Shown here: one piece after another, positions 1 through 57,991 of the stretch
How positions within the stretch are numbered: the first letter of the stretch is position 1
How the letters are laid out: each line of letters begins with the position of its first letter
IMG/VR virus record: IMGVR_UViG_3300046542_000291
Coordinates: 239,641 to 303,640 of that record
Reading direction: 5' to 3' (one strand)
DNA from: a virus
DNA: 64,000 nt
Program-made: the position numbers and the translations under genes
Notes under the pieces: generated by a model
What the model saw: only the letters and a program-made list of their open reading frames with translations
The model's database searches: none
Told to the model about the DNA's origin: nothing

Positions 1-1899
1 GGCGTTCTCGATACCTGTGATGAATGCCAGTTGTTCGAACAGCCCTTTGATGAAGGCATCTGCATCTTCAGGGGTGGAAGTACCACGAGGACCGACGTTG
101 CTCAACCAGTCCAGTGGACCGCCATTACGCAGAATGGAATCATGCAGACGCTGTTGTGCATCGCGGTGGGTGGCCTTGAACAGGTCGTTGTTGCCGCTGA
201 GGGCGCGCTGAATGTCCAGCAGGCGTTTCGGGACAACACCATCGAGCTTCTGGGTGAATAGCGACTCAGGGAACTTGTACACGCCCGGGCCACCAAAGAT
301 AGATTTCTGCATGTGTTCGATACGCTCTTTTTCAAGTGGGCTTTCGTACGTTGCGGTTGGATCGTAGTTGACCGATTCCAGGAAGGCTTCGGCCAGGTGT
401 TGGTCAGGAACATTGAGATCGTTCCAGACGTTGATACCCACACCACGAGAACGCAGTTCTTTGATACCGGGATCGGTATCTTCCTGTTGTTTACGGCTAC
501 GGCCCAGAGGACCAGGCAAATTAGCAGCCGCCAGATCGGTTGGGAGAACCATAGGTTCCTGGTTGGTGATGTGATGACGTTGGGCAGCTTCTTGCCGTTG
601 GACGTGAGTCAGGCAATCACTGACATCCAACTGGCCCAGGTTGTCACCCTCGTATACGGAATCGAAGTTAGCCTTGGCATGCCGACGGGTCAGACCTTGG
701 ATCTCTTCGGCTTTAAGGGTGTTCAGCAGGTTGGTGGTAGTGTTGCTGTAGGTAATCTCACCAGTCTTTGCGTTGTACAGCACACCTTCGCCATGCAACA
801 TCGGCAGGCGAGTCACCATAACAGCCAGCAGGCGGTTGATGATTTCCTTGGCGCAGTTGGAATGTTTCGGGGTGTACTGGTGTTCGGCTTTGATGTACTT
901 AGCCAGTTGTGCTGGGTCGTACTGGTGACGTTCGCCGGTTTCATCGGTGACGTGGAAACCGATCAGGTTGAGGGGAGGTTCTGGTTGGTCATCTTGAAGT
1001 GACATGTCAGGAGCCTTGGGCAGTTTGGATTTGTATTCGCCGAGAGTTGAATGGCGGATGATGTTGTAACCATTATCCTGGAGGATGACCTGACAGCCAT
1101 CTTCTTTATCGTTGGCCAGAAGCGTTGCCATAATTTCGTCGTATTTCTGGTTGACCCAGTACGACATGTTGGCTGGCCAGAGGGTAGGAACCCCTTCGTG
1201 GATACCGTTTATACGGTCGTTGTAGTACATGGGCTTACCGTCAACATCAATGACCTTAATGTAAAGGTCGGTGCTGTCGATTCTGGGGTTAGCGCCCATG
1301 GCCTTTGCACCATCACCGATATCGCCAAGATCAGAGAACTTTACGAACTGCATATCTGATTCCACGAATGCGTGTTCCGGATGCCGATTAGCCATCATCT
1401 TGCGGACGTAATCTTTGGCATAGTCGGTGGCGGCCATGTTGCCCCCATTCATCACGAGCGGCTGGTATTGATGGCTGATACGGCCCAGTTGCCAATCGGC
1501 TAGCAGGTAGAGGTGATCTTCTTCGCCCCCTACATGTAGAACAACTGCATTGTCCGGCTTGTAGTCACGTGCCATCTGGCGATAGACGTCACGGACGCTC
1601 ATGATAACCAGTTCGTGATTGAGCCCAGGCGCAAACCAGATGTCCTTACCCACGTGTTCTGGGTAATGTGCAACAATGAGGTCATGCAGTGAACGGAGAT
1701 ACGCCCAGTTATCGTAACGGATATCGGGTTGATTCCATTTTACGATCTGGTTGTTGAGGTTGGGTTTACCAACAGTACGGTCCTCCAACCAGTAGTCTTT
1801 ATCGCCAATGCGAATGACTGGGGAGGTTGCATCACGAACGGACTGGTAGCCGTTCATCTTACCGAGGATCAATTCGCCTGGGTTAGTAATCTTGCTCAT
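1..1899 (-). CDS. Large unrecognised phage protein, C-terminus cut by window edge
   Basis: An open frame of 633 codons runs from an ATG at 1899 to the left edge with no stop, so the C-terminus lies outside the window. The start follows an AGGAGT ribosome site about six bases upstream. The protein begins MSKITNPGELILGKMNGYQS and looks soluble: I see no signal peptide or membrane segment. It is rich in charged and aromatic residues. I do not recognise a family. It is followed upstream by a small gene in the same direction and could be a virion or replication-associated protein; that is a guess. The rightward frames over this stretch are shadows. Confidence 0.85.
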   Translation of the reverse strand, partial: MSKITNPGELILGKMNGYQSVRDATSPVIRIGDKDYWLEDRTVGKPNLNNQIVKWNQPDIRYDNWAYLRSLHDLIVAHYPEHVGKDIWFAPGLNHELVIMSVRDVYRQMARDYKPDNAVVLHVGGEEDHLYLLADWQLGRISHQYQPLVMNGGNMAATDYAKDYVRKMMANRHPEHAFVESDMQFVKFSDLGDIGDGAKAMGANPRIDSTDLYIKVIDVDGKPMYYNDRINGIHEGVPTLWPANMSYWVNQKYDEIMATLLANDKEDGCQVILQDNGYNIIRHSTLGEYKSKLPKAPDMSLQDDQPEPPLNLIGFHVTDETGERHQYDPAQLAKYIKAEHQYTPKHSNCAKEIINRLLAVMVTRLPMLHGEGVLYNAKTGEITYSNTTTNLLNTLKAEEIQGLTRRHAKANFDSVYEGDNLGQLDVSDCLTHVQRQEAAQRHHITNQEPMVLPTDLAAANLPGPLGRSRKQQEDTDPGIKELRSRGVGINVWNDLNVPDQHLAEAFLESVNYDPTATYESPLEKERIEHMQKSIFGGPGVYKFPESLFTQKLDGVVPKRLLDIQRALSGNNDLFKATHRDAQQRLHDSILRNGGPLDWLSNVGPRGTSTPEDADAFIKGLFEQLAFITGIENA

Positions 1900-12536: not shown

Positions 12537-13958
12537 CTATTTGGCGTATTTGAGCAGGGCGATTACTGCAGGGTAGTAATAGAACCTTTCAAGATTGTCC
12601 CAATACAGAACATTCTCCAGCATTGCATCAAACTGCTGTAGGTTCAACTCTTCGCCTTTGATCATAGAAGTGATCAGCATCTCCAGCTTAGACTGCAAGT
12701 GCTTATCACAGCGGTAGAACGATTCAGTGAAGACGTAATAACAATCACGGTTCACTGGGTGGATATCAGCCGGTACCCGATAAGGGGTAGAGGCATTGAA
12801 ACGTTCTTCCTCGGGAGGAATACGTTTGAACCACGGTGCATCCCGATCCATCTGTTTGATGTACGGACCAGGGAATGGCCGGCGAGGGCGACCCTCGTGA
12901 AAAGGGATACCCATAGGCCGTGCACGATCTTCACCATCGTACTGGCTATCCACATCAGTCGGTGCTTCCATCGGGAAGACCATTCGAGGGATACCGGTAT
13001 AACCGATAGCTTGCATCTCAGGACGCCAGCGCGAGATCTGAGTCGACACCAAGTGTGCTCGCTCCGTAGAGTCAGCGATCTTGTACATGTCGTGGTAAAG
13101 GACAGCATCCCAAACGGTATTCTGTCGCATCACTGGTTCAGACTGAACGTTGAGTTGCTTGACCTTACGCATACGACCATGCATGTTCGTGTCAACCATA
13201 GCGATCATGGCGTTAGTCACGAAGTGGTCGTAGGTCTTGTAGAGCTGATCCGGAACCAGGAAGGTGGAATGCTCAACCGAGAAGAAATCCGTTACATAGT
13301 TGTTGACCAACGTACGCAACAGTTTTGCATAACGATCCGAACGCTCTTTCTCTTCACCAGAAATGAATGGACCGCATCCGCTTGCCAAGGAGGCAGCAGA
13401 GTACCACCACTCTTTGATCGTCTTACGTTTCAGGTCGTCCAGACGTTCTTTGGTCAGTTCACCAACCTGCTTCCATTCCACCGCGTAAGTGGAACCTTCC
13501 TGGATGGTCACCCGTTTAGCCGAGGTGATGGTAAACAAACCAGTACGACCGTCACCGATACCGGCAGCGAACATGTCATGCTTGTTCGGCGTCAGGTAAC
13601 CGTAGGTGTGACCAGAACCTGTCCGTGCCCACGTGTTAATGGTGTCGTCTTGAGTTTGGTCAAGCGCGCTGTTCACTTTCAACAGGATGTTGTGCAACCA
13701 GCGGTACTGTTGGTAGGCCGGTTCACGGGCTACGTTCTGCACCATTGGCTGTTGGTTCTTGGTGAGTACTTGAGACCAGTAGTCCACCACCCAGTTGGAA
13801 CCGTTCGTCCAGGCCATCATGTGCGAAGGCGCAGCGTACTCCAAATCGATGGTGATGCCACGATAGACCTCAGGCTCCATCAGGACCGCATCGGGGAGAG
13901 GACCATCTCCTTCAACACAGGGTACATCCGGTTGTTTAGCTTTCTTGATAATTGCCAT
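12537..13958 (-). CDS. Probable virion structural protein (473 aa)
   Basis: I chose the ATG at 13958 because AAGGA lies seven bases upstream, giving a 23-base overlap with the gene upstream. The product is soluble, rich in Tyr/Trp, with a proline-rich stretch around residues 360-400 (GRPRRPFPGPY). No family recognised. Its place in the structural operon suggests a tail or head-tail protein. Confidence 0.75.
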   Translation of the reverse strand: MAIIKKAKQPDVPCVEGDGPLPDAVLMEPEVYRGITIDLEYAAPSHMMAWTNGSNWVVDYWSQVLTKNQQPMVQNVAREPAYQQYRWLHNILLKVNSALDQTQDDTINTWARTGSGHTYGYLTPNKHDMFAAGIGDGRTGLFTITSAKRVTIQEGSTYAVEWKQVGELTKERLDDLKRKTIKEWWYSAASLASGCGPFISGEEKERSDRYAKLLRTLVNNYVTDFFSVEHSTFLVPDQLYKTYDHFVTNAMIAMVDTNMHGRMRKVKQLNVQSEPVMRQNTVWDAVLYHDMYKIADSTERAHLVSTQISRWRPEMQAIGYTGIPRMVFPMEAPTDVDSQYDGEDRARPMGIPFHEGRPRRPFPGPYIKQMDRDAPWFKRIPPEEERFNASTPYRVPADIHPVNRDCYYVFTESFYRCDKHLQSKLEMLITSMIKGEELNLQQFDAMLENVLYWDNLERFYYYPAVIALLKYAK

Positions 13959-15585
13959 CGTCTGTCCTTCTTGTTGCAATGATCCCTGAGTTGAGAATGT
14001 TGAAAGGACCGTAGAACTTTCCGTTCATGTAACGACCCACGTACTTGTCCATTTCCTTACGGGCAGTCGTGACGTCATTCTGGAAGATCACACCGGACTT
14101 ATACGTGTCAACGTCTTTGGTCCAGTCGGTCGTCCCTTCACCCGGACATTCTGGGGAAGCATATCGTTCTTTCGCAGTAGCCCCCAGCAACTTCATTTCC
14201 GAGATAGGCTTACGCCCTACAGAAACGTTGAAGAGTCGGCACAGGTTCCAGAACACCGTCGGGTAACGACGCAAACATTGGAACGTGCTATCCGGAACAG
14301 CCCACCAGTTCACATCCACAGAAATCTGCAGGTGATAGTAAAGTGTCGGGTCAAGATCAGCTGGAGCACGAACAGCCAATGTGACCGGATCAATCTCCAG
14401 TGCTACACGCATCCGCTCATTGTTCTGGTAAAGCCAGAAGTTGAACAACCCACCTGGTCGTTGAATAGCCTTTGAACCCACGGTTGCAAAGTACTCCAGG
14501 AACCACTCAGTGAATTCCCAGTCGCCCAGATCGGTAAGGTGCAGCAGTGTCCGTAGATCGGACTTCTCCAAGACACACAACCCACAGTAGAACGTAAACG
14601 ATTCCCGGGGCTTGTCGTTGGTCGTCCAATCATTCACCGCTGGATACTGAACGTACTCGATGCCGTGTGGTCGAGGCAGAATAACCGAATGGTCCAACGG
14701 GCCACGGATGGCAGTTGTCTTCCGATCGATCTGCTGGTAGTTCGAGTAAGGAGCCTTTGGCCAGAACATGTCATGCATCGGGTTCTGGTGAGCAACCAAT
14801 GGATAACGGCAATACAGGTGGGTCGGACGATCGTAACGCATAGTGAAGGTTACAGTCGAGGTGTAGGCACCTGCCCCATCCGACGTCTGTACTGGAGCAT
14901 CTGGACCCGCCGTAAAGTCAAACCAACCAACAATGTCCACCTGGTGCTCGCGGATAGCGGGTTCCTGGTGGGTGTTGATCAGTGTGGCGATCTCAGTGTT
15001 GTTTTGCCAGAAGCGTCCAGAGAAGTATTCCTCCCACGTTTCATCGATTGGCCACTCACTGCACTGGATCGTGTCGTAAACGCCTCTGATGATTGCCTGG
15101 AGAGGCTTAGGGACCATGTAGTGGTACTTAACGCCAAAGGTGTACTCCGCGCCACCACGAGACAACCGAATACGCTGATCATCCAACCAACGCTTGGCAT
15201 GAACCACGCCGCTGGCTTGATACTCAATGTCAACTCGGAAGTCTACGTAACGTCGAACCGGTGTAACCGTTACGTCACGGATTGGGTCTTCCCACACCTT
15301 TAAGTTGAGGTGGGTATTAACAGCGGAGGTTAAGGTAAACCCTTCATCTGCAATCTCCGTGTAACGGACAACCATGCGTGCTTCTGGGTCATAATGAATC
15401 TTTGTTTTGCAGCAGCCTCCAAACGTGCCGTCATCCATTGGAACTTTGTCGGTTTCTCCTGGGAGATACACAACCGTGTCTTCTGGAATCGTCATGGCCC
15501 GGGACAGCTGGCTCATCACATCCACAGCCACACGTCGCTCGATGGACTCAGAGGTGTCTGGAAGGACTATTAATGCATGGGGCAT
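13936..15585 (-). CDS. Probable virion structural protein (549 aa)
   Basis: First gene of the 15.6-10.5 kb unit, with GAGGA upstream of the ATG at 15585. The sequence alternates short beta-type stretches with aromatic residues, typical of tail or baseplate proteins. No enzyme motif found. A tetraloop terminator separates it from the acidic inner-body-like gene upstream. Confidence 0.75.
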   Translation of the reverse strand: MPHALIVLPDTSESIERRVAVDVMSQLSRAMTIPEDTVVYLPGETDKVPMDDGTFGGCCKTKIHYDPEARMVVRYTEIADEGFTLTSAVNTHLNLKVWEDPIRDVTVTPVRRYVDFRVDIEYQASGVVHAKRWLDDQRIRLSRGGAEYTFGVKYHYMVPKPLQAIIRGVYDTIQCSEWPIDETWEEYFSGRFWQNNTEIATLINTHQEPAIREHQVDIVGWFDFTAGPDAPVQTSDGAGAYTSTVTFTMRYDRPTHLYCRYPLVAHQNPMHDMFWPKAPYSNYQQIDRKTTAIRGPLDHSVILPRPHGIEYVQYPAVNDWTTNDKPRESFTFYCGLCVLEKSDLRTLLHLTDLGDWEFTEWFLEYFATVGSKAIQRPGGLFNFWLYQNNERMRVALEIDPVTLAVRAPADLDPTLYYHLQISVDVNWWAVPDSTFQCLRRYPTVFWNLCRLFNVSVGRKPISEMKLLGATAKERYASPECPGEGTTDWTKDVDTYKSGVIFQNDVTTARKEMDKYVGRYMNGKFYGPFNILNSGIIATRRTDDGNYQES

Positions 15586-15627
15586 GTCTAATCCTCATGT
15601 TAGTAAGTTCATAAGATCCGGCATAAA

Positions 15628-15645
15628 GCCTCCCCGAAGGGAGGC
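15628..15645 (-). terminator. Terminator of the acidic inner-body-like gene
   Basis: GCCTCCC-CGAA-GGGAGGC hairpin; leftward it reads into TTTATGCCGG, the recurrent tag. Confidence 0.85.
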
Positions 15646-15652
15646 CGTATGT

Positions 15653-17974
15653 TTACTTGGCTACTCGACCAGTCACGCTCAGAACAGCGCGAACCAGATC
15701 GATGATGCGTTCCTGGAACAACCCGTAGGTTTCCAAGGAAGCCGAAGTGCACCACCAGGCTTGAGACATGAGCTCTTCCAAAGCCTTAGTGCCGCGCTTA
15801 ACTTCAGCAGCTTCACCAGCCTTCTTGTTAGCCATGTCGCTTTCGGTGCCACTGCGGTTGATGCTGTCGATTGCAGCAACCAACTTCTTGCCCATTACGC
15901 TCGAGGTAGCGTTGGACAGACCGACCAGAACCTTACACAGTTGCAGAAGCTTGACCACGTCAGCTTTCTTCAGCGAAGCCGAGGAGTGGCCGTTAGGGTT
16001 CTCCAGGTAATCGCACTGTGGCATCACCCGCTTACGCAGGGACTTCATGTCAGCAACCAGATCACCAGTCGCTTTCAGTTCAGGCTTGACGATTTCGAAG
16101 CCGCCTTTGAAGGTCCACACAGACGCAGGGTACTTGGTGTATGGAGCAGCCAGCTTCAGTGCCTTGTTGGCAGCCGCGGCAGCTTTGGTACCGTCAGGAG
16201 CCGAGATACCTTCCTTCACACATGCGATGAGGCTTTCGATGTAAACCGAATCCGCCTTGAAGACAGAGCTACCCATCTCGGTCAACGCTTTCAGTTCACC
16301 AGTGATACCTTTGATCACGCCGTCGTTGAAGTGCAAGACAGCGGGCAGGAGTTTGACTTCCAGTTCCGATTCCATCTTCGCTTCGCCGATCTTGGTGATC
16401 TGCAGGTCCAGCTTCTTGTTCAGCGCATCGATCTCGGCTTGTGGAGCCTTGAGGTGCATCTTGTCGTTCATTTTCTTGGCGAACGCATCGACCATGTTCT
16501 TACGAGCATGCTTCAGGCGTTTCCAGAACTCACCGAAGGATTCCAAGGAAGCCTTGTAGTGGTCTTCGATGTTGGCCGCGCTGTAGGATTCCACGGATGG
16601 AACCACTGGAGAATGGTTGCCCATTGCTTTGGCCAGGCTCAACATTTTCTCGGTGGCCAAGGCCATCGTTTGGTTGCTGAACTCTTTGTTACGGATGCCG
16701 TAACTCAGAACCCCCATGAAGTGCTCGACTGCGGCGGTTTCTTCGTCGACTTCGTTGATCGATTTGCTGGTGTCGATGATTTCATCTTCCAGCTTCTCGT
16801 CTTCTTCAACCTTGTCGTCCGCAGTGATCTCGGCGTCGGCTACGTCTTCGTCAGTGGTTTCGGTGTCCACATCGGGTACGTCGATATCGCCGTTTGCCAG
16901 ATCTTCTTCGGCTTGGGCGTCTTCTTCAGGCGTGGTTTCTTCTTCGCCTTCCGTTTCACCTTCACCTTCACCCGCGTCTTCGCCGCCTTCGTCACCACCC
17001 TCGGCGTCACCAGCTTCTGCATCGCCGCCTGCATCAGCTCCGGCATCGCCATCAGCTGCATTGGCGTCGTCACCGGTAGCTTCACCGCCACTATCGGCAC
17101 TTGCATCATCACCACCAAAGTCACCACCGGCATCAGCGCCGGTATCTACATCACCCGTTGCATCAGCGGCTGCATCGCCATCGGTACCCGCATCTGCGTC
17201 AGTACCAGCAGCGGTATCGTCAGCACCGGTATCGGTACCAGCGTCGTCACCGGCCGCAGCCGAGTCATCACCCGCAACGGCGTCAGCTGCTACATCAGGT
17301 TCAGCTTCGCCAGTAGTGCCTTCTGCGCCAGCATCGTCGGATGTACCTGCCGAATCACCAGCGTCCCCGCCCACGCTATCGCCACCGCCAAAATCATCAC
17401 TGCCGCCGTCACCCAGACCGCTATCGCTGCCAGTCCCAGTGTCATCAGCGCCAGAAGCATCTGCGCCCAGATCACCAGATGCTTCACCACCGGTGTCACC
17501 ACCCAGATCCGCTCCATCATCGCCACCTTCGGCGCCTGCGCCGTTGTCGGTACCGCCTTCGGGAATAGCGTCGATGTCACCACCAACTGCTTCCGCATCA
17601 GCAGCATCACCTTCAGTAACACCTGCGTCAGCTGCAGCAGGGGCATCACCCTCGGTCGAACCCGGGGCCACGTCTGCCGTTTCAATAACAGCAGCTTGTT
17701 GTTCGGTCACTTGCTGGGCTTGTTGTTCAGCTTGAGCATGTGCCGGATCTTCCTGGGCTTGAGCAGCTTGCGCTTCGTCAGCCGAGGCAATCAGATCTGG
17801 AGCCGATTCAGTCGGAACTTCCATGGAGGTCGGAGCTTGTTCGGTTGGCAGGGCAGCAGGAACTGCGCCCGCTACTGGTGCTACGGCACCTTCGTTGTGA
17901 GCCAGCGGAGCACCAGCAGGTGCCTGGTCGACGTACTCTTCGAACGCAGGCAGATACCGTGTAATATTCATCAT
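15653..17974 (-). CDS. Inner-body-like head protein with giant acidic prodomain (773 aa)
   Basis: Two parts are plain. Residues 7-387 contain no Lys or Arg at all. Most of this stretch, about 105-400, is a low-complexity Asp/Gly/Ala/Glu/Thr region. Residues 410-773 form a normal domain with the layout of the neighbouring inner-body family (VEHFMGVLSYGIRNKEFSNQ, then PSVESY at 459-464 and ASLESF at 475-480). SVE and SLE are candidate sites for a phiKZ-type prohead protease, which cuts after Glu in small-X-Glu. The acidic part would then be a propeptide lost during head maturation, perhaps a scaffold or DNA mimic. It is most like phiKZ gp97 by position; that identity is unproven. The start could be either of two adjacent ATGs. 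Confidence 0.8.
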   Translation of the reverse strand: MMNITRYLPAFEEYVDQAPAGAPLAHNEGAVAPVAGAVPAALPTEQAPTSMEVPTESAPDLIASADEAQAAQAQEDPAHAQAEQQAQQVTEQQAAVIETADVAPGSTEGDAPAAADAGVTEGDAADAEAVGGDIDAIPEGGTDNGAGAEGGDDGADLGGDTGGEASGDLGADASGADDTGTGSDSGLGDGGSDDFGGGDSVGGDAGDSAGTSDDAGAEGTTGEAEPDVAADAVAGDDSAAAGDDAGTDTGADDTAAGTDADAGTDGDAAADATGDVDTGADAGGDFGGDDASADSGGEATGDDANAADGDAGADAGGDAEAGDAEGGDEGGEDAGEGEGETEGEEETTPEEDAQAEEDLANGDIDVPDVDTETTDEDVADAEITADDKVEEDEKLEDEIIDTSKSINEVDEETAAVEHFMGVLSYGIRNKEFSNQTMALATEKMLSLAKAMGNHSPVVPSVESYSAANIEDHYKASLESFGEFWKRLKHARKNMVDAFAKKMNDKMHLKAPQAEIDALNKKLDLQITKIGEAKMESELEVKLLPAVLHFNDGVIKGITGELKALTEMGSSVFKADSVYIESLIACVKEGISAPDGTKAAAAANKALKLAAPYTKYPASVWTFKGGFEIVKPELKATGDLVADMKSLRKRVMPQCDYLENPNGHSSASLKKADVVKLLQLCKVLVGLSNATSSVMGKKLVAAIDSINRSGTESDMANKKAGEAAEVKRGTKALEELMSQAWWCTSASLETYGLFQERIIDLVRAVLSVTGRVAK

Positions 17975-18005
17975 TTTTTGTTACCTTCTGTACAGACGGA
18001 ATTTC

Positions 18006-18059
18006 GGCTATGTCGTTCGTCCTTAACATAGCCTCGACAATTGGACGAAACGTCGTTTC
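18006..18059 (-). terminator. Two inverted repeats after the 18066-19289 gene
   Basis: GAAACG-T-CGTTTC (18047-18059) directly follows the stop. GGCTATGT and ACATAGCC (18006-18033) pair around a 12-base loop. Either could end the upstream unit or structure the leader of the next gene. Confidence 0.45.
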
Positions 18060-18065
18060 AAAGGA

Positions 18066-19289
18066 TTACGTAAGATTACCTTCACAAACGTTAGTAGCCG
18101 CTTTCAGATCTCGGAGAACATACGAGTAGAAACCGATGTATGGATCAATGACCCAACTAACGTAAGTTTCAATCACAGCTACCAATGCACGGCTCTCTTC
18201 TTCTGAACGCAGACCTGGTACCGGGTTCTGGATTTGGTCACGGATACGTTCAATAGCAGACAACAGGGAGTTCATGCGGTTACGTCGAGCATTACGCTTC
18301 GACATATTGTTCGAGTCCAGCAACAACCGACCGACTTGTTCGATACGTTGAACAATGGTGTTCCACATGGAGTAGCTGAAGTACTCGAAGTGAATTTCTG
18401 CGGGCATGGGTTCAGGTTCTGGAATAGAAGGCATCAGTTCTACCGACATCCCACGAATGCGTTCATCACTCGTACCGTTCTGTCCATCGTCATGGATAAC
18501 CAACTTGTGGTTGCCCATCAGGTGCATGGATTCCTGGCGACCATTACGTTCACGCCAAACAGAACCTTGAACCATTTGCAGTGGATTAACGGCAAGGATC
18601 TGATCGGAAACTGTTTCCAACGTACCGTTGGAGTTAGCCAACGTTACGACGCTGTTCACCGGAACCAGTACGCCTTCTTGGTGCGTGGTGAAGTAGCACT
18701 TGGAAACGGCATACAAAACAGACAGGGAGTTCAGCAGTGTCGTTGCATCCTTAATAGGGCGGTATTTGACACACAGGTTAGGGATACGCGATTCGATGGA
18801 GAATTCACGGGCCGTAGAGCTACGCTTACCCCCACTGGATCGAGCGATCTCTTTCAACTGTTCCAATTTGACAAACATCATGTCAGTGGATACCGACAGA
18901 CGCAATTCAGAGTCGTTGAACAACTTCAACCAACGCTTGATCATGGCGATCAAACGGTTAAGCAATTGCAGCAGTGAATCCCCGAATCCTTCCAGACCAA
19001 TGTTGGCATGGAGGTATTGCAACTCACGTTGAATAGGGGTGTACCATTCCAAACTACCCAGCTCATCGGAAAGGATATCTGGGTCATCGGTACTTGCCAA
19101 CAGATCAGCCAAAGCTTCCGCTGTGTCCTGTTGATCTTTCACTACACCTTCGTTGAGCATTTGTGTTGCGTTGCTGGCTTTCTCGGCAGCTAACGACGTA
19201 GCTACTTCTTCACGGTAGCGGGCCATCCATTGCTCACGGGTTTCTCCCCGCCGCTCTTCAGCGCGCTTCAAACGTTCTTCAAAATCCAT
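18066..19289 (-). CDS. Inner-body-like family protein (407 aa)
   Basis: I chose the ATG at 19289 because AGGAG lies six bases upstream. Residues 97-125 (NIGLEGFGDSLLQLLNRLIA...) match the conserved block of this family: a small-X-Glu site followed by an amphipathic Leu/Ile helix. The N-terminal 97 residues are highly charged and would be the propeptide if Glu100 is cut. Internal-head proteins of phiKZ are matured this way. It sits between the 773-aa and 510-aa family members. Confidence 0.7.
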   Translation of the reverse strand: MDFEERLKRAEERRGETREQWMARYREEVATSLAAEKASNATQMLNEGVVKDQQDTAEALADLLASTDDPDILSDELGSLEWYTPIQRELQYLHANIGLEGFGDSLLQLLNRLIAMIKRWLKLFNDSELRLSVSTDMMFVKLEQLKEIARSSGGKRSSTAREFSIESRIPNLCVKYRPIKDATTLLNSLSVLYAVSKCYFTTHQEGVLVPVNSVVTLANSNGTLETVSDQILAVNPLQMVQGSVWRERNGRQESMHLMGNHKLVIHDDGQNGTSDERIRGMSVELMPSIPEPEPMPAEIHFEYFSYSMWNTIVQRIEQVGRLLLDSNNMSKRNARRNRMNSLLSAIERIRDQIQNPVPGLRSEEESRALVAVIETYVSWVIDPYIGFYSYVLRDLKAATNVCEGNLT

Positions 19290-19306
19290 AGGAACTCCTA
19301 ACATAA

Positions 19307-19330
19307 GACGGAGCTCTTTCGAGCCCCGTC
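19307..19330 (-). terminator. Terminator of the 19337-20869 gene
   Basis: Leftward GACGGGGCTC-GAAA-GAGCTCCGTC, a 10-bp stem with one mismatch and a GNRA loop, followed by TTATGTT. Confidence 0.75.
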
Positions 19331-19336
19331 CGATGA

Positions 19337-20869
19337 TTATGCCTTCGCGACTTGTTTGTCGTTCTGAGCACCGCTACCCATCTCAGCCAGGCACAGGTCA
19401 ACGTAAGCCGACGTGGTACGAGCAACGTACTTCACGATCTCAGCATTACGTGGGTTGGTCTTGTGCAGGATGGACATGGCAGCCGAAACAACAGCGCCAG
19501 CTTCAGACTTGGACTTCTCGTCCAGTTCACCACTTTCAGCAGCCTTCTCGATCTTCTCGATAGCCTGGGAAACCTTCTCGGCCGAGGCAGCGATCTTGTC
19601 GCTTTCAGCTTTGACTTGTTTCAGGGTGTTGCAGACTTCACGCATGGTGCCCAGGTCAGCCTTGATGGTCGAACCAGAGCGAGCAGCCACTTCGGCGTCA
19701 CCAGCTTCAGCGCTACCACCAGCTTGCTTCATGCCGTAGGTCATGCCATCGTTGGCCACGTCCAGCTGCATGTTGCCAGGGTAAACAGTAGCGTCACTGA
19801 TCAGTTCGTCCAGAGGGCGAGCCGCAGTGGCGATGTGATCGATCACGTCAGCGGAGTTACCCGAGGACACGTCGTATTGACCCAGGGTCGAGGCCAGGGC
19901 GTCGTAGAACGAGATCATGGCTTTCGGGTAGACACTGGAACCAAAGGTCGCCATACCAGCCAGAGCTTTCGGATAGGTCGGATTGATCTTGCCACCGACG
20001 TTGATCTTCTCAGGGCTCGGTACTTTCACCTTACCTGTAACGGCAGGTTTGGAACCCAGTTCGCCAGCGCGGGCTTCAGCTTTCTGCAGCTTCGATTCCA
20101 GGCCAGTGATACCTTGCATGAACTGCTCGGTGAACTCTTTAGCCTTGGCCCACATTTCTTTCAGCCAGGCAATGACCTTGGCACCTGCTTCTTTGATCTT
20201 GTCTTTCAAACCACCAGGCTTGACGTTGGACGGTTGGATAGCCGAACGAGGCTCAGCATCCATGTCTTCCAGGCCAACAGTCAGGTCGGACGTACCGAGT
20301 ACGCGGTTGCAGTGTTCCAGGCCTACACGCATGAATGCGGCAGCTTGCTTGGAGATACCGTCACGACCGGCTTGTTTGATCAGAGCAACGTATTGCTCCA
20401 TCGATTCACGGACTTCCAGAACTTGACCGATCTGGTTGTTGATGTGACTTTGCTCAGCCAACGGGGCACCCATCATTTCGAGGGTGTTGTCACTGTCGAG
20501 CGGAGCGTCGATGATCAGGCCCGATTGCTCAGGGGTAGGGATGACATCGGCAGCAGGAACTTCTGGTTCGCCTTCAGCACCAGCTGGGATGATCGCACCG
20601 GCGTCTGGAACTGGTGTAGGGATCGGCAATTCAGCAGGAGCGGCAATCACTGGAGCAGCAACTGCGGATGGAACGAAAGCTGGAGGCATCTCACCGTGTT
20701 CATCGGTAGGAACCATGGTACCTTGCACGCCATCGACGTTGGTAACGATTTGTGGATCGACGACATCACCATCGACCGCGGCAGCTACTGCTGGAGCGAT
20801 GGGGGCTTCTTCGTAATCTTCGAGGCCTTTCTTAAGGGCTCCGTAGCGGGACATGTTGAGACCGGCCAT
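19337..20869 (-). CDS. Inner-body-like family protein (510 aa)
   Basis: I chose the ATG at 20869, with AAGGA upstream. Residues about 1-150 are Pro/Ala/acid-rich. Next come the shared helix block (SMEQYVALIKQAGRDGISKQ, about 156-175) and the cut-site candidate TVGLEDMD (Glu201). The C-terminal region (YPGNMQLDVANDGMTYG and following) aligns clearly with 23659-24768. Probably packed inside the capsid; likely equivalent to phiKZ gp95 by order, which is inference. Confidence 0.78.
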   Translation of the reverse strand: MAGLNMSRYGALKKGLEDYEEAPIAPAVAAAVDGDVVDPQIVTNVDGVQGTMVPTDEHGEMPPAFVPSAVAAPVIAAPAELPIPTPVPDAGAIIPAGAEGEPEVPAADVIPTPEQSGLIIDAPLDSDNTLEMMGAPLAEQSHINNQIGQVLEVRESMEQYVALIKQAGRDGISKQAAAFMRVGLEHCNRVLGTSDLTVGLEDMDAEPRSAIQPSNVKPGGLKDKIKEAGAKVIAWLKEMWAKAKEFTEQFMQGITGLESKLQKAEARAGELGSKPAVTGKVKVPSPEKINVGGKINPTYPKALAGMATFGSSVYPKAMISFYDALASTLGQYDVSSGNSADVIDHIATAARPLDELISDATVYPGNMQLDVANDGMTYGMKQAGGSAEAGDAEVAARSGSTIKADLGTMREVCNTLKQVKAESDKIAASAEKVSQAIEKIEKAAESGELDEKSKSEAGAVVSAAMSILHKTNPRNAEIVKYVARTTSAYVDLCLAEMGSGAQNDKQVAKA

Positions 20870-20902
20870 GTTGCATTTTCCTTCATGAAGGTGGAATTCG
20901 GA

Positions 20903-20918
20903 GTTAATTGCAATTAAC
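20903..20918. promoter_or_regulatory. Perfect 16-bp palindrome upstream of 20869
   Basis: GTTAATTGCAATTAAC is a perfect palindrome 34 bases before the 20869 start. It may be an operator or part of a late promoter; no second copy was noticed. Confidence 0.35.
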
Positions 20919-20942
20919 ATAGCATTACGTAAGAGACGGCAT

Positions 20943-20965
20943 AAGGGCCCCACACGGGGACCCTT
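20943..20965 (-). terminator. Terminator of the 20983-22374 gene
   Basis: Leftward AAGGGTCCCC-GTGT-GGGGCCCTT with one bulged base, followed by ATGCCGTC, the common tag. Confidence 0.75.
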
Positions 20966-20982
20966 GTGTTTGAACAACCGAA

Positions 20983-22374
20983 TTACTCAGTGAGTTCTTT
21001 CCGCGACAGCATGGCACCAAACATGGCGAGCTGCTCATCTGCAACGTGGACGCAGTGATCGAAGACATGACGCAGGCCATTCGGGCTCAGTGCAGTCAAC
21101 GCTTTACCCAGCGAAGAGATACCGTCAGTCAGTTCCTGAGGTGCGCGGTTCTCTTTACCGAAACGCATGGTCAGTTCACCTTCCTTCTTGGCGAAGGCAT
21201 CGCCCAGTTCTTTCAACATGGTGTTGATGAAACCGGTGGTGGAACGCGATTCACCAACAGCCTTTACCAGGGCCTTGATTTTCTTGTTCGCAGCCAAGAT
21301 CTCAGCGTGAGACAGAACAGCAATCTCGGAAGGACCTTGGTTGTAGTTATCCGTGTTGAGCGAGATACCTACGCCATTGACAAGTTCACCCAGGGTAAAA
21401 CCACCACCCATGACATCACCTGGTACTTCACCCAGGCCAGCTGCCGAGACGGCTTTCTCGAGTGCCTCTTGACCGTACGAGGAATTGAGGTTATCGGCAT
21501 TGGCTGCCATGATCGAGGACTTCAGCGAGTCACCGAACTTCTTCATTGCTGGCAGGTAGGTGCCACTCAACCAACCAACGACCGCGGTTTCACCGGCCAT
21601 GTCACTGAGTTCATCACCCTTGGCAAACATGACGTTACGACCGTGTGCTGGAATGCTGGATGGTTTACCTTTGGCGCCTTCTTCTTCCGGTGCAGCTGCG
21701 GCTTTATCAACAGCCACTGCCTTCTGAAGAACGGCGTCGGTCTTCGAGAAGAACTTCTCGTACCAAGCAGCGAACTTCTCACGGAGAGCCTGAAAGATCT
21801 CAACGATTTTCTTACCGGCTTCGGCAAGCTTCTCTTTCAGGTCTTCCAGGGAAACGGTGGTATTGCTGGCAGCAGAGCGTGGAGTGGCATCGAATGCTTC
21901 CAGACCCAGTGACTTCTTGTCGCCCAGGATACGGTCAACGCGCTTCATGCCGACAGCCATGAATGCAGCCGATTGCTTGGAGATACCTTTACTACCCGCT
22001 TGCTTGAGCAGGCCGACGTACGCTTCCAGTGTGGACTGAGCTTCGCCCAGTTCTTCACTGCGTTGTTCGTCTTCCAAGTAGGCTTCTTCTTCAGCCAGTT
22101 CTTCTTCGCTGTCTTGGCGTGGATCAACGAATGGGAAATCGTCTTGGCCTTCTGGTGGAACGCCCGCAGCCAATGGATCGCCTTCAGCAACACCAGCACC
22201 TTCCTGGATTACACCAGTGGTCTCGTTGCTTTGTTCGCCACCATCGGCATCGACGATCAGGTTCTCTGGAATACCGAATGTAGCACCTACGCCATCGGCG
22301 GAAATGTCATTGGTCAGAGTATCAGGCAAACTGTCAAAAGACTCGTTGCCCAGGTAAGTTTTCAGGTTAAGCAT
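20983..22374 (-). CDS. Inner-body-like family protein (463 aa)
   Basis: Acidic N-terminal region (residues 40-110, EEELAEEEAYLEDEQ), then the shared block STLEAYVGLLKQAGSKGISK and LGLEAFDATPRSAAS (Glu159 a likely protease site), followed by VSLEDL. The remainder is helical. It parallels the 510-aa neighbour, including the PRSA residues after the site. Predicted to be an internal-head protein matured by the prohead protease. Confidence 0.78.
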   Translation of the reverse strand: MLNLKTYLGNESFDSLPDTLTNDISADGVGATFGIPENLIVDADGGEQSNETTGVIQEGAGVAEGDPLAAGVPPEGQDDFPFVDPRQDSEEELAEEEAYLEDEQRSEELGEAQSTLEAYVGLLKQAGSKGISKQSAAFMAVGMKRVDRILGDKKSLGLEAFDATPRSAASNTTVSLEDLKEKLAEAGKKIVEIFQALREKFAAWYEKFFSKTDAVLQKAVAVDKAAAAPEEEGAKGKPSSIPAHGRNVMFAKGDELSDMAGETAVVGWLSGTYLPAMKKFGDSLKSSIMAANADNLNSSYGQEALEKAVSAAGLGEVPGDVMGGGFTLGELVNGVGISLNTDNYNQGPSEIAVLSHAEILAANKKIKALVKAVGESRSTTGFINTMLKELGDAFAKKEGELTMRFGKENRAPQELTDGISSLGKALTALSPNGLRHVFDHCVHVADEQLAMFGAMLSRKELTE

Positions 22375-22413
22375 GTTGGAGCGCCTCGTAACAAAATTCT
22401 TGATAACATAAGA

Positions 22414-22433
22414 TCAGGAACCGCAGCTCCTGA
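22414..22433 (-). terminator. Possible terminator of the 26.1-22.4 kb genes
   Basis: TCAGGA and TCCTGA pair around an 8-base loop, followed leftward by TCTTATG. Weaker than the other hairpins. Confidence 0.4.
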
Positions 22434-22441
22434 CCGAATGT

Positions 22442-23662
22442 TTAATTGATTTCTTGCTGGCAGTACAGCACGTAAGCAGTCAAGACTTGCATGATGTAAG
22501 CGTACAGTTTCCGGTTCGCTTCGATCGCAGGCTTGAACTTAGTGATGGCTGCCGCTGACCCAGAATAGTCAACTGGTTGGCCGTTATCATCAACGACTTC
22601 GACCTTCTCGCCGAAACCATCAAGCAATTGAACGATGGCCTTTTCGATTGGCTCACCATCCCACTGCAATTTACCCAACAGCTTCTCAACTTCATTGAGA
22701 GTCTTGTTGATTGCAGCGTTATCACGAACAGGGCACTCAGGCTCGACGCTGTCGTCGTCTTCGTAAGCCAGTACCAGGGCCACGCCATCCTGATCCAAAC
22801 GCCAGTTACCTGGGAGAATGGTATTCAGATTGAAGCGGAAGTCGATACGCGCTTCACTGCCATCGGCGGAAGCTTCAATAGCGCGGGTGACAGCTTCAGG
22901 ATAACCTTTGTTAACAAAGGCAATAAGATTCTCGAGCGAGGTAAGATCCCCATCGAACTTTCCTTTAATGCAGGTGAAGCGAGCGACTTTCTGGAATGGA
23001 ACAATCCGGCGCTGGCCTTTAGGACCGTTTGGACCTTTCGAAGTCTTTACGGACTCGCGTGTCTGAGCGATGTTTTCTTTGAGGCGTTCTTTTTTATCGG
23101 TCAACCGATCCCACAACTTCTTGCCTTCTTCGATCAGTTTGTTGATCCAGGCTTTCAGTTGGTCGATGATCTTCTTCAGCATGCTGTCCGACTTACCTTG
23201 ATCGACATTGACGGCAGACTTGTTCGACCGGTTGTCGATCTTGTCTACAGCGAAGTCTTCCAGGGCAGCCATCATTGAGGTAGTACCGATGAGCTTCTCG
23301 ATACGTTCCAGCCCGATGCGCATCATGGCAGCCGATTGACCGGAGATACCATCGTGACCCGCTTGACGGATCAGACTACGGTAGCCTTCCATGGTGACGA
23401 TAGCGTCAGCCAGTTGGTCAACCTGATCGGACGCTTCTGCTTCAGCCAACTCAGGTTGGATAGCGAGGGAATCGTACAGTGGGTTGTTGGTTGGCAACAT
23501 GCTGGTTGGAATCTGGGTAGCGCCGATCTGATCTTCAGGAAGCATCTGGCCAGTGCCTGCAGGTGTTTGTTGATACGCGGAGTGATCACTCGCAGCGATC
23601 TCTTCTTCGGTTGGGTAATGCAACCCACCGTCGAATGCGGGGAGTACTGGGTCCATTGTCAT
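22442..23662 (-). CDS. Inner-body-like family protein (406 aa)
   Basis: Contains the shared block VTMEGYRSLIRQAGHDGISG (about residues 89-108) and MAALEDFAVD (Glu135 a likely cut site), then a basic amphipathic helix region (LIEEGKKLWDRLTDKKERLK). The start overlaps the stop of the next family member by four bases, so the two are translationally coupled. Confidence 0.78.
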   Translation of the reverse strand: MTMDPVLPAFDGGLHYPTEEEIAASDHSAYQQTPAGTGQMLPEDQIGATQIPTSMLPTNNPLYDSLAIQPELAEAEASDQVDQLADAIVTMEGYRSLIRQAGHDGISGQSAAMMRIGLERIEKLIGTTSMMAALEDFAVDKIDNRSNKSAVNVDQGKSDSMLKKIIDQLKAWINKLIEEGKKLWDRLTDKKERLKENIAQTRESVKTSKGPNGPKGQRRIVPFQKVARFTCIKGKFDGDLTSLENLIAFVNKGYPEAVTRAIEASADGSEARIDFRFNLNTILPGNWRLDQDGVALVLAYEDDDSVEPECPVRDNAAINKTLNEVEKLLGKLQWDGEPIEKAIVQLLDGFGEKVEVVDDNGQPVDYSGSAAAITKFKPAIEANRKLYAYIMQVLTAYVLYCQQEIN

Positions 23663-24768
23663 GCTCTCTGATGATTAGTAGCGGTTTCAACTTCGCGCTG
23701 GATAGCAGCGAGGTGAGTGTTCAACACACGGCCGACGTACTTGATGATTGATTTGTTACCAGGCTTGGCTTGTCGTGTAACAGCCATGGCCGCATTGATT
23801 ACAGCTTCGGCATTACTCACAGAAGCTTGGTCTGCAGACTTCTGGGCCTTTTCTGAAAGCACGTCAGCTGCTTCAACGACCTTCTCGACCGCTGCGGAGA
23901 TAGAGTCTTCTGCTGGAGCAATCTTCTCGACCACATCGATGATCGCACCGATCCCACCCAACAGCTTCTCCAACTCCTGACGACTACGGACAGGAAGTTC
24001 CAAGTCTTCGCCATTGGTGTCAGCGTCAACCTGAGCAACCGAATACGACAGACCGTCATCGGAGATGGCCAGCTTCATGTTACCGGGGAAGGTCACATCA
24101 CTCTCACCGAGTTGGTGCAAAGGACGAGTGGACTCTTCAATGGCACTAACCATTTCTTCAGGTCCGCCATCACTTGGGACGTACACCTTGATGATGGTAG
24201 CGAGTTCAGCGTAGAACTCTTCAACCACGCTTGGGTAAGTCACAGCGCCGAATTGCGCCAGACCACCGATGGATTTCAGATCACTACGTTCGAACTTGCC
24301 ATTAATAGACAGTTGGTTAACAATAGCCCCTGGGAGATGAACAGTCATCTTAGCCCCATCTGGCATTGTCTTGACTTGTTCCTGCACGCCTTGCAGTCGA
24401 GTACGCAAACCGGTAAAGCTGGTGACCAGATGACTCACTTGCTGACGGGCAATCTCAAACAACTTCTTGATCCATTCCTGGAACTGCTTCAAGGCAGCGG
24501 TGATCCGCGAACCAATGCCTTCCAATGGAACAGTCGTTGGGCTATTGCTTCTGGCCGTAGCCACAGCGAAGTCTTCTACCGAAACAGTCGAAGTAAACCC
24601 GTAGATTTTGTCGAAGCGCTGAAGGTCGGTATAAAGGAACGCAGCAGCCTGGTTGGTCAGTCCATGTTTCAGGACTTTGGAGTAAGCCTCCAGTGACGCC
24701 AACTCGCCTTCCAGCGAGATAAGTTGGTACGTGAGCTCTGCTTCACGCTTCTCAAGTTGGTGGTACAT
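23659..24768 (-). CDS. Inner-body-like family protein (369 aa)
   Basis: Short propeptide version: LASLEAYSKVLKHGLTNQAA (about residues 23-42), then TVSVEDFAVA (Glu65 a likely cut site). The C-terminal 200 residues align with those of 19337-20869: VTFPGNMKLAISDDGLSYS, and later a helical pair ending NKSIIKYVGRVLNTHL. It overlaps the gene upstream by 17 bases. Confidence 0.78.
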   Translation of the reverse strand: MYHQLEKREAELTYQLISLEGELASLEAYSKVLKHGLTNQAAAFLYTDLQRFDKIYGFTSTVSVEDFAVATARSNSPTTVPLEGIGSRITAALKQFQEWIKKLFEIARQQVSHLVTSFTGLRTRLQGVQEQVKTMPDGAKMTVHLPGAIVNQLSINGKFERSDLKSIGGLAQFGAVTYPSVVEEFYAELATIIKVYVPSDGGPEEMVSAIEESTRPLHQLGESDVTFPGNMKLAISDDGLSYSVAQVDADTNGEDLELPVRSRQELEKLLGGIGAIIDVVEKIAPAEDSISAAVEKVVEAADVLSEKAQKSADQASVSNAEAVINAAMAVTRQAKPGNKSIIKYVGRVLNTHLAAIQREVETATNHQRA

Positions 24769-26068
24769 TTCCGTTGCCCTTCATTTCGTCTTGAGTTGGT
24801 TTTCTCAGCGGTGGTTGATAAGCCTTCAACTCAAGCTCAGCCATGTAGGTGAGCGAACCCAACAGCCGAAGAATCCCAGCCATTGCGTTGTTGTAGTCCG
24901 TTACCATTCTCGCTACGTTATTGATCATCAGCGTAACGCTTTGGATGATGTCCGATACAGCAGGTCTCCCTTTAATCTGTTTCGGCTCTTCCGTTTGTTC
25001 GTCGGTCTCAACCTTAAAGGTGCCTGCCTTCGAACGAACTTTCTCTCCAGCCATTTGCATGCGCCGTAGGGACTGAGCCAACTTGGACTCGTAACCTTTC
25101 CGGGCCTGCATCCGTTTAGAGATAGCTTGTAATTGACCCAACCGCTGACGAATGTTCGACAATGGGTCAACTTGAATTACCAGCGCTTCAGAAGGAGCTG
25201 TCTTCATCCCCGGTACGGTGTACCAACGGAAAGAGAAGTCTCTAACTGTGTTCACCAGGAAAGCCCAGTTCTTCAGTTCGTCTGTCTTGGTCTCCGTTGG
25301 ACCAGAAGCGTAGATGGCTTTGTTCCCCTGCACCATTGGAGTGCGGAAGATGGGAGCACTGACACGGAAACGATCATCCTTCTCAACGGGTTCTGCTTTG
25401 GCCATCCACGAGGTAGGGGCCAATGGCGAGAAGTCCATTGCGGCTTCGTCGGTGAACTCGTCGTCAAACGACAACTTGCTCAGGATACCCGAAACAGAGT
25501 CGATGTATTTAACGAAGACTTTATCGAAGAAAGCAAAAGCGCTAGTGCTGACGGATACCAAACTAGCGACATCTTTAGGTTCGTACGTTCCATCACGGTT
25601 GAACTTCTTTGGAGACTTCAGCGTGAACTCAGTCTTGTAGGGTTTGTCTTTCAGGTTCTGTACCTGCCCATAAAGCATCTGAGTGCGCTCTACGATGCGA
25701 TCGGCTCCAAGGTTAATCACCCTTGCATATTCGATCGATTCGGTCTGTAGCTTCTTCAGAGCGTCTGTGGTACGTTCCCACACCTTCTTGGAGGCGTTGG
25801 AAATATCCTCCATTGAAACTTCGTTAGGTGAGATGACATCGGCATATTTACTGAGGTCATATTGGAACACACCGGCGTCTGGCTCGTAACGATGGTTCTC
25901 CAAAGTTACACCCAAAGCGAGGCTCTGGGCAATTTGACGCAGGGTTGCTTCTGTCCGCTGCTCCATTGCTTCGAATTGGGCTTCGAGCGAGACGATCATA
26001 TCGACGGGCTCACACCCGTCGACTGATTGAGAGGTCTCAGGAGCATGATGACGATGAACGTCAGTCAT
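24752..26068 (-). CDS. Inner-body-like virion protein (438 aa)
   Basis: N-terminal 87 residues end at NEVSMEDISN (Glu87, small-X-Glu). A long helical domain follows that lacks the KQAG..ISKQ block of the closest paralogues, so it is a more distant member or a separate internal protein. A Lys/Arg-rich stretch at about residues 335-375 could bind DNA. First of the closely packed inner-body-like genes; phiKZ gp89-like by order (inference). Confidence 0.65.
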   Translation of the reverse strand: MTDVHRHHAPETSQSVDGCEPVDMIVSLEAQFEAMEQRTEATLRQIAQSLALGVTLENHRYEPDAGVFQYDLSKYADVISPNEVSMEDISNASKKVWERTTDALKKLQTESIEYARVINLGADRIVERTQMLYGQVQNLKDKPYKTEFTLKSPKKFNRDGTYEPKDVASLVSVSTSAFAFFDKVFVKYIDSVSGILSKLSFDDEFTDEAAMDFSPLAPTSWMAKAEPVEKDDRFRVSAPIFRTPMVQGNKAIYASGPTETKTDELKNWAFLVNTVRDFSFRWYTVPGMKTAPSEALVIQVDPLSNIRQRLGQLQAISKRMQARKGYESKLAQSLRRMQMAGEKVRSKAGTFKVETDEQTEEPKQIKGRPAVSDIIQSVTLMINNVARMVTDYNNAMAGILRLLGSLTYMAELELKAYQPPLRKPTQDEMKGNGNVPPT

Positions 26069-41204: not shown

Positions 41205-41250
41205 AGTAACCTCGGTAATTGTTCAGATACACAGGATAAGACGGCATAAA

Positions 41251-56605: not shown

Positions 56606-57991
56606 TTACAGCGAGCTACCTTGCTGCGGGAATCCACCGTACTGCGGCTGCTGAGGCATCATCATTGGTTGAGGCATCATTTGCTGCGGTTGAGCGAAGA
56701 TCTGCATGAACGGGTTCTGCTGCATTTGTTGCTGGTACTGCATGGCTTGTACCTGAGGCTGCAGCCATGGCAATTGAATGCCTTGGTTCTGCGGTTGTTG
56801 GAAGCCAGGCATGTTTTGCATCGGAGTAGCCATGGATGGTTGCAGCATTACCGGCTGGCCGTACTGGTTGTAAACCATCTGCGGTTGTTGTGACATCATC
56901 GGAGCAGGCTGCTGTTGGAACTGCGGCTGCTGGGATTTGAGGAAGTCACTTACCGAAATGGTGTCGCCAGGTTTGCTTGCTGTGGTTGGAGCGGCTGCAT
57001 TCAAGCCAGCGCCCATCTGCGGCATCTGGCCGACCATTTGTGGAACGTACTGGTTGGCTGGTTGAGCTGCAGGTTGCTGCTGTTGTGCTTGCGCTGCGGC
57101 TGGAGCACCGGCTTCGTCGGTTTCATTCACACCACCGTCGTTACCGTTCAGTGGTGGGATCTCGTTGTAAACTTCCGGGAAGGATTCCCAGATGTTCTCG
57201 TCGTACAGAGGGAACGGTTTGATCCCCAGGTGCAACGGTTCATTGAAACGAATGATCGACTTGTTCAGCTGGTTGCAGATTTTCCAGTACGCTTTGATCA
57301 GCGCAGTGAAGAACGGTGCAACGCGAGTAGTGGTACCCGCTGCGTACTCTTCCGGCGAATCGCCGAATGGAACGACCAGCTTGAACAGCTCCAGGATGAC
57401 CTTGCCGTGTTTCTTGCCCAGGTCTACGCCCAGCACTTCCTTCTCACCGCTGTTCAGCTCGTCGATGATTGGGAAACGAATCACAGCCATGCGATTCACT
57501 TTGGTACCGTCGATGGTACCGCCATGTTTCAAGAAGACCGATACGATCTTGTTCTTCTTGTTCGCACTGGACATCAGCTTGTTGTAAGCCACCAGCGTGT
57601 TCTTGTCCGCGTTGGCCAGCTTGGCCAGTACGGTTGCCATTTCTGGCGGCAGGTCTTTGTGCAGGCTGGTATCGACAGCGACGCGCAACAGCGCATCGGT
57701 CAGGTAACCGACCATGAATGCAATGTTGGCTTTCGCCGCACGCTGCATGTGTTGCAACACCGGTGACGTGCCTTTACGCGCCAGGTTTTCTGACAGTGGG
57801 TGGAACGGCTGATAATCTTCACCGAACCCATCACGCAGGAACTTGTTGGATGGGAAGGCCAGACGCTTACCGTCTACCTTCGCTGGTTCCAACGTACCGG
57901 TCGGAGTCAGGATACTGAACAAGTCATCCTCACCGATCGAGTAGTTGAATGCCGGGGCGATTGCCTTATAGACCTTCGAAAGGGATTGCAT
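56606..57991 (-). CDS. Conserved-block protein with Gln/Met/Pro-rich tail (461 aa)
   Basis: Residues 1-270 form a folded helical domain. From about 285 to the end the sequence is low-complexity Gln/Met/Pro/Ala (QQQQPAAQPANQYVPQM, QQMMPQPMMMPQQPQ), almost free of charge. Such a tail could drive self-association. It overlaps the gene upstream by 26 bases and ends the block that precedes the polymerase genes. Position suggests the phiKZ gp70 equivalent; function unknown. Confidence 0.72.
   Translation of the reverse strand: MQSLSKVYKAIAPAFNYSIGEDDLFSILTPTGTLEPAKVDGKRLAFPSNKFLRDGFGEDYQPFHPLSENLARKGTSPVLQHMQRAAKANIAFMVGYLTDALLRVAVDTSLHKDLPPEMATVLAKLANADKNTLVAYNKLMSSANKKNKIVSVFLKHGGTIDGTKVNRMAVIRFPIIDELNSGEKEVLGVDLGKKHGKVILELFKLVVPFGDSPEEYAAGTTTRVAPFFTALIKAYWKICNQLNKSIIRFNEPLHLGIKPFPLYDENIWESFPEVYNEIPPLNGNDGGVNETDEAGAPAAAQAQQQQPAAQPANQYVPQMVGQMPQMGAGLNAAAPTTASKPGDTISVSDFLKSQQPQFQQQPAPMMSQQPQMVYNQYGQPVMLQPSMATPMQNMPGFQQPQNQGIQLPWLQPQVQAMQYQQQMQQNPFMQIFAQPQQMMPQPMMMPQQPQYGGFPQQGSSL

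Follow-up and report, generated by a model that had tools for sequence, protein, structure and literature searches.

The gene at 15653..17974 of the window (the whole 64 000-nucleotide stretch of viral DNA that was analysed) codes for a phiKZ gp97-type ejection protein, made as a precursor whose N-terminal leader is probably cleavable, disordered and selected for charge. Features were assigned as follows (basis in brackets).

15653..17974, minus strand: gp97-type inner-body protein precursor, 773 aa, ATG start (translation, tblastn, phrog_27812)
17930..17974, minus strand: CTS-like N-terminal motif, residues 1-15 (MMNITRYLPAFEEYV; about 15 residues, MMNITRYLPAFEEY) (PSSM)
16814..17956, minus strand: stretch free of Lys and Arg (K/R), residues 7-387 (translation)
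16889..17914, minus strand: disordered polyanion of variable length, residues 21-362, net charge -94 (ortholog comparison)
16769..16888, minus strand: conserved acidic island (DIDVPDVDTETTDEDV), residues 363-402 (alignment)
16613..16759, minus strand: helical-hairpin prodomain, residues 406-454 (AlphaFold, paralog alignment, hhalign)
16589..16597, minus strand: SVE-462 (460..462), predicted prohead-protease site (conserved motif)
16541..16549, minus strand: SLE-478 (476..478), second conserved protease-motif site (alignment)
15656..16588, minus strand: predicted mature domain, residues 463-773, mostly helical (AlphaFold, BFVD)
13936-15585: gp98-type neighbour (phrog_3289)
18066..19304, minus strand: gp96-type neighbour, internal head protein (phrog_12254, PF12699)
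19337..20977, minus strand: gp95-type paralog, K/R-free run of 139 (PF12699)
20983..22374, minus strand: gp94-type paralog, K/R-free run of 80 (PF12699)
22442-23662, minus strand: phiKZ_IP paralog (PF12699)
23659-24768, minus strand: phiKZ_IP paralog (PF12699)
24752-26068, minus strand: phiKZ_IP paralog (PF12699)

In the translation, K388 is the next basic residue after R6 and residues 7-387 are therefore without Lys or Arg, as a first-pass annotation of the DNA had reported. These 381 residues carry a net charge of -109. The same annotation had described residues 105-400 as almost pure Asp, Glu, Gly, Ala, Thr and Ser; these account for 262/296 residues (89%; D67 G66 A60 E33 T24 S12), with a net charge of -98. 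At the K+R content of the other ORFs of the window (10.6%), the probability of a 381-residue run is about 3e-19 per start, and the run is therefore not due to chance. The runner-up in the other ORFs of the window reaches 139 residues; this is also the longest run in the six other family members, which were rightly said to have none so long. Asp, Gly, Ala and Thr are each written with several codons in the polyanion region. An origin by repeat expansion was considered and rejected: TRF gave weak, short rows only and no significant tandem array.

Trypsin would release residues 7-388 as one piece of 382 residues (35.7 kDa, computed). Residues 105-387 contain 2 aromatic residues and 4 Leu/Met and are thus also poorly suited to chymotrypsin. 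The leader region is invisible to standard tryptic proteomics. Because the whole segment is a single tryptic peptide, absence of its tryptic peptides from virions is uninformative.

An antisense ORF of 874 aa (15407-18031, plus strand) lies opposite the polyanion gene and is longer than it. The codon composition of the gp97 strand probably accounts for it, and nothing supports its status as a gene. It would stay open because the sense codons rarely read as stops on the other strand.

When phage records were searched with tblastn, matches were obtained in Pseudomonas phiKZ-like phages only and the alignments were confined to residues 402-773. Identity to these relatives spans 24-42%: 42% for Psa21 (E 5e-61), 40% for D6 and RVTF4, 29% for phiKZ gp97 (E 6e-31) and 28% for 201phi2-1 gp159. 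PHROG matches, both in the head and packaging category, were phrog_27812 (virion structural protein, E 7.9e-56) and phrog_27483 (E 4e-49). The genes are arranged as in phiKZ gp92-gp98: six PF12699 paralogs lie to one side, and the gp98-type gene lies on the opposite side. The flanking genes at 18066-19304 and 13936-15585 have the order and sizes seen in phiKZ and Psa21. All features of the ortholog group are thus present (homologous C-terminal domain, gp96/gp98-type flanks, long acidic leader). On sequence grounds, the gene is an ortholog of phiKZ gp97 and 201phi2-1 gp159.

The six other genes (18066-26068) all pass the PF12699 phiKZ_IP Pfam model, in agreement with the six further family members counted earlier. 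The gp97-type protein itself gave no Pfam match at E 0.01 and did not reach the PF12699 cut-off; distant PF12699 homology was detected by hhalign (97.5%, E 7e-12, 327 columns). Assignment of the downstream domain to an inner-body-like family is thus borne out through gp97 orthology together with profile and fold homology to PF12699. For the gp95-type ORF (19337-20977), the probable start is an internal Met, that of MAGLNMSRY, which lies 36 codons after the first TTG, since no other start yields the family N-terminus. The gp94-type paralogs of Psa21, D6 and RVTF4 are about 800 aa long (L002:5735-8116, L003:5619-8084 and L004:5652-8105) vs 463 aa in the window, and their added length is not acidic filler.

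Going by alignment and model, the polyanion is flanked by a CTS-like N-terminus and by a conserved block of about 100 residues that includes the hairpin prodomain. The N-terminal PSSM was trained on gp97 N-termini only and compared with 186 control ORFs. Twelve gp94/gp95-type paralogs of other phages outscored all of these controls. The window's own gp94 and gp95 paralogs did not score high, and the motif is therefore looser there. In all orthologs with a recognized motif, the acidic island DIDVPDVDTETTDEDV starts 99-101 aa upstream of the junction, regardless of polyanion length. The two helices of the hairpin (406-428 and 434-454; AlphaFold model, mean pLDDT 82) align with the equivalent hairpins in 22 paralogs of PF12699 type. 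The mature domain has a computed net charge of +9 and pI of 9.2. Its fold matches in BFVD are internal head or structural proteins of Erwinia, Klebsiella, Vibrio and Ralstonia giant phages, and include PF12699-type proteins of Psa21 and 201phi2-1. A fold search of the PDB gave no significant match, and no gp97 homolog of solved structure was found by sequence; two paralogs, phiKZ gp93 and gp162, are present in structure entry 8y6v. The long polyanion was found in the Pseudomonas group only. Since the hairpin and the mature domain match paralogs and other giant phages, they look older and more widespread than the long polyanion.

Both SVE and SLE sites, which had been noticed at the junction, are present and conserved. 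At SVE-462, the motif [SA]-[VML]-E is kept in all aligned orthologs and a comparable site occurs in most paralogs; in the AlphaFold model it lies within a non-helical linker between the hairpin and the mature domain. SLE-478 is also conserved, and a comparable pair of sites occurs in several paralogs. A homolog of the gp175-type (MEROPS S80) prohead protease is encoded in the same genome (G000:C1:168602-169399, 64% identity, E 1e-114). Protease cleavages were mapped in phiKZ gp97, likewise in gp93 and gp95, and C-terminally FLAG-tagged gp97 was injected (PMC10449902). phiKZ gp97 is one of six abundant inner-body proteins, with 100-200 copies each per virion (PMC13282480). Work on SPN3US has established that the prohead protease removes long N-terminal propeptides from the head proteins of giant phages (PMC5694885, PMC10052503, PMC7411985). 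Two experimental cuts, 13 residues apart, are known in SPN3US gp54, and in vitro digestion led to the proposal of a cut at residue 12 of gp53 (PMC10052503). The internal proteins and Alt of T4 carry N-terminal capsid-targeting peptides that are removed by the protease (PMC9026906, PMC7411985).

As phiKZ gp97 has been published as gp175-cleaved and injected, a long propeptide that can be removed is an established feature of phiKZ-like phages. The observation made in the window is real and more general than first stated. The proposal of a removable N-terminal prodomain is supported by the conserved sites, the protease gene and the published processing of phiKZ gp97; by homology, the leader is very likely removed in the window phage. 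We give very little credence to the reading in which the leader is never removed and serves the virion's inner body as a permanent acidic spacer. Tryptic data would be blind to such a retained stretch and some SPN3US propeptides are incompletely cleared (PMC10052503), but the two conserved junction sites, the protease gene and the cleavage of phiKZ gp97 stand against it. A built-in shredder, i.e. an enrichment of protease motifs in the polyanion, was also tried and rejected: motif counts were mostly equal to or below the composition-shuffled expectation. Some ortholog polyanions are depleted in these motifs (phiPA3, 12 vs 24.4 +/- 3.8 expected).

Leaders were compared in 16 gp97 proteins including that of the window, 15 of them complete and one (L013) with a broken 3' part. 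The leader measures 140 aa before the junction Glu in Noxifer, 268 aa in L012 (net charge -63) and 392-625 aa in the others. Its net charge ranges from -30 to -197, which gives a density of -0.21 to -0.34 per residue. This density is near-constant though the GC content of the phages varies from 37 to 57%, and charge follows length with r = 0.985. The mature part is at +3 to +12 in all 15 complete orthologs. The filler differs by clade, being Asp with Gly/Ala in the window clade and Glu with Val/Thr in that of phiKZ. A long acidic propeptide occurs in 14 of the 15 other orthologs, the exception being Noxifer (-30). K/R-free runs longer than the 381 residues of the window were found in the IMG/VR relative L013 (390) and in 201phi2-1 gp159 (388); those of Psa21, D6, RVTF4, L008 and L009 reach 333-358, and a few Lys are tolerated in the phiKZ and phiPA3 polyanions. 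The long polyanion is thus shared among orthologs, and its implied uniqueness was wrong. The L013 gp97, which is 201phi2-1-like, ends early (L013:6270) while the match runs on; judging from the match, the early stop would be a frameshift or an assembly error.

Gains of K/R were counted in three separate ortholog pairs and compared with the expectation of a simple transition-weighted model of single-base changes, the pairwise alignments of the disordered region being approximate. In the polyanion, the seen and expected numbers of changes creating or removing a K/R were 0 and 13.1 for Psa21-L008, 0 and 10.7 for D6-L009, and 1 and 11.4 for 201phi2-1-Viktualia; the mature parts of the same pairs had 14, 7 and 4 changes, respectively. 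When pooled, 1 gain was seen in the polyanion vs 35.2 expected (P ~2e-14), a deficit of about 35-fold. In more distant within-clade pairs, the polyanion is 41-65% identical with many gaps. These alignments indicate that positive charge is excluded from the polyanion while its sequence drifts, i.e. that selection acts on charge. They disfavour a sequence-specific function over most of the polyanion and favour one that depends on charge or bulk. The charge function suggested in the first-pass annotation is therefore supported in spirit, since charge rather than sequence is conserved.

It is extremely unlikely that the leader is unselected, slippage-grown filler, K/R-free through its codon composition. 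Its wide length variation and poor sequence alignment would fit such low-complexity drift, but the K/R deficit, the charge density maintained over this GC range and in both Asp/Gly/Ala and Glu/Val/Thr clades, and the mixed codons without significant tandem array all oppose it. It is barely credible that the leader folds as a DNA mimic of the Ocr/Arn type or binds calcium through RTX-like repeats. Such proteins would share the Asp/Gly-rich, negatively charged character of the leader, but a Pfam search of the polyanion found neither RTX nor any other domain, and the strong length variation and the unconserved sequence also argue against them. Moreover, known DNA mimics fold into compact proteins.

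We propose that the propeptide (the N-terminal 462-478 residues) comprises three parts: the CTS-like motif, the disordered polyanion, and the acidic island with the hairpin prodomain common to the whole paralog family. The targeting motif and the hairpin would bring the precursor into the prohead core. The gp175-type protease would cut S/A/G-x-E sites, chiefly SVE-462 and SLE-478, and the leader would exit before or during DNA packaging. The remaining basic helical domain would pack with DNA and then be injected. Until cleavage, the charge and bulk of the polyanion would keep the basic domain, at +9 to +12, and its neighbours soluble, spaced and off nucleic acid while the prohead is still free of DNA. 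A targeting role of the N-terminal motif is fairly likely by analogy; a charge-masking or spacer role of the polyanion is put forward tentatively. The polyanion lies between two conserved modules (targeting and hairpin) whose roles are separable from its own. The question of why the leader is so long is thereby recast in a testable form: it would be selected for negative charge and bulk, not for sequence. The charge conservation, the island at a fixed distance and the shared N-terminal motif and hairpin were not found described in the literature searched, which did not cover the primary phiKZ processing paper, and no priority is claimed.

As the mature domain is merely at +9, the -117 of the leader is far above what intramolecular neutralization needs. 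Noxifer and L012 cope with short leaders, and the long form is therefore dispensable within the family. If the phiKZ copy numbers are assumed, the leaders bring about 12-23 thousand charges vs about 620 thousand phosphates (2-4% of what a 310-kb genome carries), and stoichiometric replacement of the DNA charge is therefore unlikely. Two readings remain, namely a local shield or spacer for basic domains, or a part of the scaffold core.

In the second reading, the leader would be a true scaffold, making up much of the interior mass of the prohead, shaping the shell and then being destroyed, as T4 gp22 and gp67 are; we consider this possible but doubtful. The same charge density is seen in T4 gp67 (-25 over 80 aa, or -0.31 per residue), which belongs to the prohead core and is a substrate of the protease. 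With 100-200 copies of 44.6 kDa (phiKZ copy numbers), the leaders together would reach about 4.5-8.9 MDa vs 15-20 MDa for the inner body. As of 2017, giant phages had no confirmed gp22 counterpart (PMC5694885). No homolog of the later SPN3US candidate, gp22 (PMC7411985), was detected in Pseudomonas phages or in the genome of the window phage, where divergence could hide one. This candidate is itself not acidic (net -9 of 617), which counts against the scaffold. There is a weak tendency for larger genomes to have longer leaders (rho 0.57, p 0.03, without correction for relatedness), but Noxifer has a 140-aa leader for 278 kb whereas phiKZ has 513 aa for 280 kb. Moreover, a polyanion that is disordered and unconserved in sequence offers no specific contact to the shell. 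It is rather unlikely that the gp97 leader is the scaffold-core material of Pseudomonas phiKZ-like phages, disordered, charge-selected and fused to its own ejected cargo. If this were true, a single protease cut would dissolve the core and free the basic, DNA-packing inner body. Either reading bears on how giant phages, which have no recognized scaffold, assemble the prohead with its inner body inside.

Compared with known systems, the window protein is closest to phiKZ gp97 and 201phi2-1 gp159, with which it shares the C-terminal half, the gene order, an acidic K/R-poor leader and the junction sites. Its leader is shorter (462 aa vs 513 and 614 aa, respectively) and rich in Asp/Gly/Ala where theirs are rich in Glu/Val/Thr; its K/R-free run exceeds that of phiKZ gp97 (381 vs 207). 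The PF12699 proteins (phiKZ gp93/94/95, SPN3US gp53/54) resemble it in the helical hairpin, the two S/A/G-x-E sites and the helical mature domain. Among them, gp94/95 also have the CTS-like N-terminus, but PF12699 leaders are shorter and weakly acidic. The T4 core (gp67/gp22) and CTS-bearing internal proteins offer a likeness in acidic core material, short targeting peptides and a homologous protease. In T4, however, different proteins provide the acidic core and the ejected cargo, whereas the window protein unites both in a single precursor. Sequence homology of the window protein to these T4 proteins is not known and none was found; the comparison of its leader with a T4-type core was one of charge density.

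Two further elements of the window were noted. The gene at 56606-57991 (minus strand, phrog_3520) has a Pro/Gln/Met-rich low-complexity C-terminal tail with a K/R-free run of 109 residues. A UUCG-loop hairpin of 34 bp (TAAACATACGGCCTCCCTTCGGGGAGGCTTTATG) starts at the gp97 stop codon (15622-15655, minus strand). An identical copy is present at an unrelated place in 201phi2-1, and near-copies were found at 41245 and 4986 of the window and in phiPA3 (L015:6536). This hairpin is probably a shared transcript-end element.
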